DNA of 64,000 nucleotides, taken from contig DULL01000066.1 of assembly GCA_012840395.1 (NCBI GenBank), forward strand, positions 1-64,000. The letters are read 5' to 3'. The translations under genes were made by a program, and so were the position numbers. The notes below the pieces were generated by a model, which saw only the letters and a list, made by a program, of their open reading frames with translations, did no database searches and was not told the origin of the DNA. This document shows positions 41,416-41,754 of the stretch, piece by piece; within the stretch, counting starts at the first letter, position 1; each line of letters starts with the position of its first letter. Source of the DNA: Clostridiaceae bacterium (GTDB lineage Bacteria > Bacillota > Clostridia > Acetivibrionales > DULL01).

Positions 41416-41444
41416 TTGTATTACTGTTATATTTGTGTTATAAT
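41416..41444 (+). promoter_or_regulatory. sigma-A promoter of zinc-ribbon gene
   Basis: TTGTAT (41416-41421), 17-nt spacer, TATAAT (41439-41444). It implies a leader of about 110 nt, long for a 63-codon gene. Confidence 0.6.
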
Positions 41445-41493
41445 ATCTTAGCTAAGTACTCAGTATTAGCATTGGATTAATTTTCAGACAATG

Positions 41494-41554
41494 CCTCCTT
41501 AAATAAATGGAGCAAAGTGTCAAGAAGAATTAATTCCAAATATATTTAAGGAGG
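41494..41554 (+). promoter_or_regulatory. leader sequence that can mask the ribosome site
   Basis: CCTCCTTAAATA (41494-41505) is the exact reverse complement of TATTTAAGGAGG (41543-41554), which contains the ribosome binding site of the zinc-ribbon gene. Pairing would close a 12-bp stem with a 37-nt loop and hide the site. Translation could therefore depend on temperature, a ligand, an RNA chaperone or a trans-acting RNA. Confidence 0.6.
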
Positions 41555-41562
41555 TATATAGA

Positions 41563-41754
41563 ATGGCTGATAAGAAAATTATATGCAAGGATTGTAATAG
41601 TGAGTTTATATTCACAGAAGGTGAACAGGCTTTTTACAGGGAAAAAGGTTTTGAGAATGATCCTCAAAGATGTCCTGAGTGCAGGAGGGCAAGAAAACAG
41701 CAAAGAAATAGCTTTAACAGTAACAGAAGCAAAAGTTATGGCAATAGATGGTAA
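41563..41754 (+). CDS. small zinc-ribbon protein
   Basis: 63 residues with two CxxC knuckles (C8-C11 in ICKDC and C37-C40 in RCPEC), a typical treble-clef or zinc-ribbon of the zf-trcl type, and a basic Asn/Arg/Ser-rich tail. Such proteins are common in Firmicutes, and a nucleic-acid-binding or stress role is plausible. The ribosome site AAGGAGG is optimal but can be masked by the leader. A terminator (41762-41785) ends it. It is sandwiched between two duplicated ligases. Confidence 0.85.
   Translation: MADKKIICKDCNSEFIFTEGEQAFYREKGFENDPQRCPECRRARKQQRNSFNSNRSKSYGNRW

Follow-up and report, generated by a model that had tools for sequence, protein, structure and literature searches.

Translational riboswitches with an anti-SD platform operate by strand exchange between anti-SD/SD pairing and anti-anti-SD pairing. 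Alternative folds are also found in the mRNAs of cold-shock proteins: the E. coli cspA mRNA adopts an SD-open form when transcribed in the cold and a closed form at 37 °C (PMC9947658), and in the Firmicute thermoswitches of S. aureus cspB and cspC and of L. monocytogenes cspA, refolding of the mRNA exposes the SD and translation rises in the cold (reviewed in PMC8155936). The leader considered here precedes the gene of a small zinc protein of the zf_Tbcl family (PF13451), and was analysed within a window of 64,000 nucleotides from a Clostridiaceae bacterium (contig DULL01000066.1). Like that of E. coli cspA, it belongs to the gene of a small protein of RNA-binding type and possesses alternative SD-open and SD-closed folds; unlike it, the leader controls another protein family and is shorter, its length being about 110 nt if counted from the inferred start, with no sequence relation detected between the two, Rfam giving no match that reached gathering score. 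The S. aureus and L. monocytogenes elements serve genes of the CSD family, whereas the element here controls zf_Tbcl. With the riboswitch platforms it shares the same kind of strand exchange, although it has neither an aptamer domain nor a conserved unpaired core and serves one kind of gene. By analogy, the leader would at most work like a cspA-type thermoswitch, without being a member of that group or homologous to it.

The ribosome-site complement and the layout of the leader

A sequence-only reading of this locus had pointed to an exact complement of the ribosome site and its flank in the leader of the zinc protein gene, the two arms being separated by a 37-nt loop. This was confirmed: CCTCCTTAAATA (41494-41505, + strand) is the exact complement of the SD-arm stretch TATTTAAGGAGG (41543-41554), with the loop at 41506-41542. 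The element is real and larger than first described, as the helix extends to 15 bp between ATGCCTCCTTAAATA (41491-41505) and the SD arm (41543-41557), with 14 Watson-Crick pairs and one G·U. Over 40 shuffles of the upstream region, the best helix covering the SD had a mean of 3.4 Watson-Crick pairs and a maximum of 8, compared with the 14 observed, and the folding z of the 136-nt leader is -2.96, an equal stability being attained by 2 of 200 shuffles. What weighs decisively against a chance origin of the complement is the conservation of the pairing in relatives, described below.

The sequence-only reading missed a second fold which excludes the first; with this fold present, the element is no mere lock but a switch. 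The leader and its gene, all on the + strand, are made up as follows.

41436-41444, +: putative extended -10 promoter element (TGT-TATAAT), read from the sequence
41472-41485, +: 5' side of the outer helix of fold A (P1 and the start of P1b), pairing with 41524-41539; part of the covarying fold in which the SD is kept open
41487-41490, +: 5' side of the inner part of P1b in fold A (GACA), pairing with TGTC at 41518-41521
41491-41505, +: anti-SD arm, pairing with 41543-41557 in fold B; in fold A, 41492-41498 pairs with 41509-41514 (P2)
41509-41514, +: GGAGCA, 3' side of the P2 hairpin in fold A; the stretch 41508-41512 has 41534-41538 as its partner in fold B
41518-41539, +: TGTCAAGAAGAATTAATTCCAA, which supplies the 3' strand of P1b and P1 in fold A and whose TTCCA part re-pairs with 41508-41512 in fold B
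41543-41557, +: SD arm TATTTAAGGAGGTAT, free in fold A and sequestered in fold B
41563-41754, +: zf_Tbcl (PF13451) gene of 63 amino acids, Pfam score 86.2 bits
41761-41786, +: intrinsic terminator with a 10-bp stem and a T tail (one found, 0.1 expected)

Fold A thus consists of P1, P1b and P2 within 41472-41539, with the anti-SD inside the P2 hairpin and the SD free. Folds A and B are mutually exclusive, the anti-SD strand pairing either with the GGAG of P2 or with the GGAG of the SD; similarly, the TCC strand of P1 finds its partner in the GGA on the 5' side of P1 (fold A) or in the GGA of P2 (fold B). The promoter is no more than putative, because a consensus scan at this place gave no full sigma-70 site, and the transcript would begin near 41451-41453. 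Since the intrinsic terminator directly follows zf_Tbcl, a transcript carrying this single gene is suggested.

One could also imagine that a trans-acting sRNA base-pairs with the anti-SD arm and thereby releases the SD; the arm is A/U-rich and, when exposed, could serve as a seed. Given that a conserved alternative partner for this arm is already present in cis, such an sRNA is the least credible of the explanations considered here.

Conservation of both folds

The zf_Tbcl leaders of many Clostridia display a common layout with an anti-SD, P1/P1b (TGGATT...TTTTTGA with TCAAGAA...NATCCA) and a P2 enclosing the anti-SD, P2 being present in nearly all leaders with pairing registers that differ slightly among relatives. 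On a sequence-only alignment of 22 leaders, 93% of the cells of fold B are paired as opposed to 39-72% when slid, and its covariation was reached by none of 500 shuffles; on the same alignment, fold A is paired in 85% of cells as opposed to 35-59% when slid, with seven two-sided pairs. A covariance model built from P1 and P1b only gathered 81 distinct Clostridia leaders, among which two-sided changes occur in all 14 pairs of P1 and P1b (92 two-sided cells against 36 in shuffled alignments, reached by 0/500), bearing in mind that this fitted alignment (A2) leans to P1/P1b by construction and that the unfitted fold tests are free of that lean. The B helix, to which the 81-leader alignment was not fitted, is paired there in 85% of cells as compared with 37-69% when slid, again unmatched in 500 shuffles. 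Lack of conservation had been named in the sequence-only reading as the outcome that would speak against the pairing; the pairing is in fact conserved, with compensatory changes, and the regulatory reading, in which the SD of a small zinc protein's leader is sequestered, is supported accordingly. Judging by these alignments, both folds are under selection.

Column conservation amounts to 0.94 for the bases that take part in both folds, 0.95 for the SD and 0.75 for the bases in neither, and a conserved unpaired core sought by the same measure was not found except for the SD-to-start spacer. These values bear on the possibility that the leader is a riboswitch for a metabolite or an ion and that fold A is the state with ligand bound; in favour of this, the two-state logic of an expression platform and the downstream zinc protein, making Zn a thinkable ligand, may be cited. 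We regard such a riboswitch, which had also been among the earlier proposals, as improbable: a ligand-binding core of conserved unpaired bases would be expected, whereas conservation is lowest in the columns that neither fold uses, and nearly all conserved bases belong to the two competing helices and not to loops (an argument that covers compact aptamers less firmly); furthermore, only one kind of gene is controlled, no Rfam riboswitch appears at gathering score, and positive evidence for a ligand did not emerge.

A further helix, P3, formed by CTATATAT before P1 and GTATATAG after the SD, was considered as a general part of the leader and rejected, because it gave p = 0.80 in the window, where it is not present, and p < 0.05 in just 9 of 82 leaders. 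P3 is limited to a clade, where it apparently covaries and joins the stretch upstream of P1 to the SD-to-start spacer; examples are CTATATAT/GTATATAG, CTAAATAT/GTATTTAG and GTCGATATAT/GTATATTGAC, located 8-15 bases before P1 in L018, L022, L075, L149, L127 and others.

Folding computations and the proposed mechanism

When the window RNA was folded at successive nascent lengths, fold A came out as the minimum for transcripts ending between about 41536 and 41552, and fold B took its place from 41553 onwards, once the SD had been made. Fold B wins at equilibrium at 37 °C by about 11-12 kcal/mol; in a few relatives (L005, L006 and L060), fold A roughly equals fold B in stability, or surpasses it, at this temperature. 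The computed barriers from A to B, which are crude path estimates, mostly fall between 14 and 20 kcal/mol at 37 °C and are higher at 10 °C in most, not all, leaders.

The earlier suggestion of a thermometer, if taken as a classic heat-responsive element of the ROSE or fourU kind whose SD helix melts within the physiological range as the temperature rises, is in keeping with the sequestered SD but is very improbable. In the model of the window transcript, the probability of an unpaired SD does not exceed 0.006 from 5 to 75 °C and fold B lies far ahead, which speaks against simple melting as the mechanism; the 15-bp duplex is devoid of the mismatches typical of ROSE or fourU, and the conserved competing fold A would be left unexplained.

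A kinetic order of events is proposed instead. During transcription, fold A would form first and hide the anti-SD in P2; the SD would thus emerge free in the nascent RNA, so that translation could start. The finished leader, being more stable in fold B, would then allow the anti-SD to capture the SD and translation would stop, the GGAG strand of P2 and the TCC strand of P1 swapping partners at the change. Fold A would accordingly represent a metastable open state decaying to a closed one and, because A would come first and B is the stabler when complete, the output would be set by the speed of the A-to-B change or by a factor favouring one fold. The difference E_A - E_B is 16.1 at 10 °C against 11.0 at 37 °C; as the equilibrium therefore favours the closed fold B more in the cold, a switch that is ON in the cold would have to rely on kinetic trapping or on a trans factor. 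The translatable fold A would probably persist longer in RNA transcribed at low temperature, or in RNA acted on by a chaperone, which may be zf_Tbcl itself.

Burial of the SD in zf_Tbcl leaders

The median probability of an unpaired SD is 0.02 in 96 non-redundant zf_Tbcl leaders, compared with 0.51 in 71 control genes drawn from the same loci (p = 5.5e-14), and the number of bases that switch partners between the nascent and the full RNA has a median of 24.5 in the zf_Tbcl leaders and 8 in the controls (p = 4.7e-9). Leaders far from the model behave alike, including those of Clostridium sensu stricto (L083 and L096) and of an Acholeplasmatales genome (L095). That a real, conserved bistable translational element is present we hold with high confidence.

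The zf_Tbcl leaders of another lineage (L061, L062, L064 and L072) contain an unrelated long helix, GATTAGGTAG...CTACCTAATC next to CTTCTTC/GAAGAAG, which lies about 90 bases upstream of the start and also reaches the SD; this is possibly a convergent architecture.

Gene specificity and distribution of the leader

In the 60 related genomes searched, the leader model was found at 68 places, spread over 44 of them; when compared with a protein search of the same genomes, 67 of these abut a zf_Tbcl start codon, the remaining one precedes a decayed zf_Tbcl remnant, and none belongs to a csp gene. The element has in common with the cspA-type cold thermoswitches the two exclusive folds, here computed and covarying, that expose or hide the SD, but not the control of a cold-shock-domain (PF00313) gene. 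In a wider class sample of 291 genomes, all 35 leader places abut zf_Tbcl starts, the zf_Tbcl places having been taken at E <= 3.1e-24 in a class-wide protein search; the seventh row of its query alignment is a sequence from none of the loci, which leaves the conclusion unchanged. A single leader copy is present in the window's genome. The leader was not found to have moved to csp or any other gene in either the 60 related genomes or the 291-genome class sample, and the csp leaders of the tested genomes do not match the leader model. At L142:1079-1300, a well-conserved leader (60.4 bits) stands before a decayed zf_Tbcl remnant with an intact csp gene adjoining, the leader having outlived its gene.

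An Rfam 15 covariance scan of the leader in the window and 20 relatives returned nothing at gathering score, the Rfam cspA thermoregulator included, all matches over the window leader being far below it (SAM-SAH, for example, with 13.4 bits against 40). A literature search found nothing on the function of PF13451 or on its leader; the supplementary lists of large structured-RNA surveys (e.g. PMC8040213) lay outside this search, and an earlier computational detection is possible. Subject to those lists, the leader is a new RNA family with a known kind of logic, absent from Rfam 15. A conserved, gene-specific bistable leader of this sort offers, by virtue of its exact strand exchange, clean mutants.

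The zf_Tbcl protein, csp neighbours and the likely signal

The assignment of the window protein to zf_Tbcl (86.2 bits against a curated cut-off of 24) is accompanied by the expected pairs of cysteines, C8, C11, C37 and C40, which are invariant. Its tail is basic and rich in N, R and S, and the tails of its relatives are rich in R, N and G with almost no acidic residues, resembling RNA-binding proteins in this respect. No fold relative is claimed, because the predicted model (pLDDT 78.9) gave no Foldseek match at E <= 0.001 and a best VIA Z of 3.3, a missing structural match that carries no meaning by itself; a sequence search of solved structures returned weak zinc-finger matches only (best E 0.005).

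Genes of the cold-shock-domain family (csp, PF00313) stand directly beside zf_Tbcl on the same strand in several families (L183, L185, L204, G004:C93, G013:C235, G028:C1, G033:C42, G042:C1 and G016:C29). Seven intact zf_Tbcl genes and one broken copy have a csp gene within 330 bp on the same strand, where about 0.07 pairs would be expected by chance, and one further decayed copy (G037:C74) lies beside csp on the same strand. In the window's own case, zf_Tbcl and the csp gene are not neighbours. The coupling to stress which the sequence-only reading had proposed was only partly right; it is these csp neighbours that lend it support.

The analogy with the cspA mRNA, the csp neighbours and the R/N/G-rich protein tail together make a cold-shock-type switch the most likely reading, and that the leader acts as a bistable translational switch for zf_Tbcl, most likely of this type, is what we favour, by somewhat more than an even judgement. 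Taken by itself, a cold-shock-type signal is, on this analogy, about evenly balanced.

Temperature would not be the primary signal if the leader were instead a candidate binding site for zf_Tbcl (or Csp), which by its own level would stabilise fold A or fold B. Such autoregulation would fit the finding of the leader before zf_Tbcl genes only, the R/N/G-rich tails with almost no acidic residues, and the precedent of E. coli CspA acting on its own mRNA (PMC9947658); it fits less well with the absence of the leader from L177 and L178, the zf_Tbcl paralogues of greater length or divergence that were inspected, and with the want of a conserved unpaired recognition sequence other than the SD-to-start spacer. 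As an explanation in place of the cold signal, it appears rather unlikely; autoregulation by the protein in any form, alone or additional, is a real if lesser possibility, and it may coexist with the two-state cold-shock-type switch.

Returning to the cold-shock-type switch, the RNA-binding-like tail, the csp neighbours and the leader logic suggest that Clostridia possess a second kind of cold-shock RNA chaperone, also in genomes where csp was not found, and they give PF13451, which is a common family of small zinc proteins, its first pointer to a function. In its fullest and rather doubtful form, this proposal would make the leader an uncatalogued Clostridia RNA family, kinetically controlled and cold-responsive, and zf_Tbcl a cold-shock RNA chaperone outside the CSD family, cooperating with Csp or replacing it and regulating its own leader. 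Against the cold-shock reading, the main text of a C. botulinum cold-shock paper names no zinc-ribbon gene. Among the 18 leader-carrying genomes of the class sample, 10 showed no csp gene; zf_Tbcl with its leader and no detectable csp is seen in G063, G155, G223, G243, G263, G283, G318 and G332, all of one family (f23). In csp-less genomes, zf_Tbcl might stand in for Csp.

Minor observations on neighbouring genes and csp leaders

In the window, zf_Tbcl is flanked on the same strand by two acyl-CoA synthetase-like genes of the AMP-binding family (PF00501; 39472-41322 and 42053-43924) that closely resemble each other, which suggests a tandem duplication with zf_Tbcl between the copies, and a glycerol-3-phosphate responsive antiterminator (PF04309, 43969-44547) lies downstream of the second. 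Lastly, the csp genes of L186, L190-L193, L195-L197, L199-L202, L205 and L207 share a different conserved leader (e.g. GATTTAGTAAGAGCAT...ATGCAAGCTAAGTTAAAGTATCAAGTTCAGGAGG), possibly a further element of this sort that no catalogue lists.
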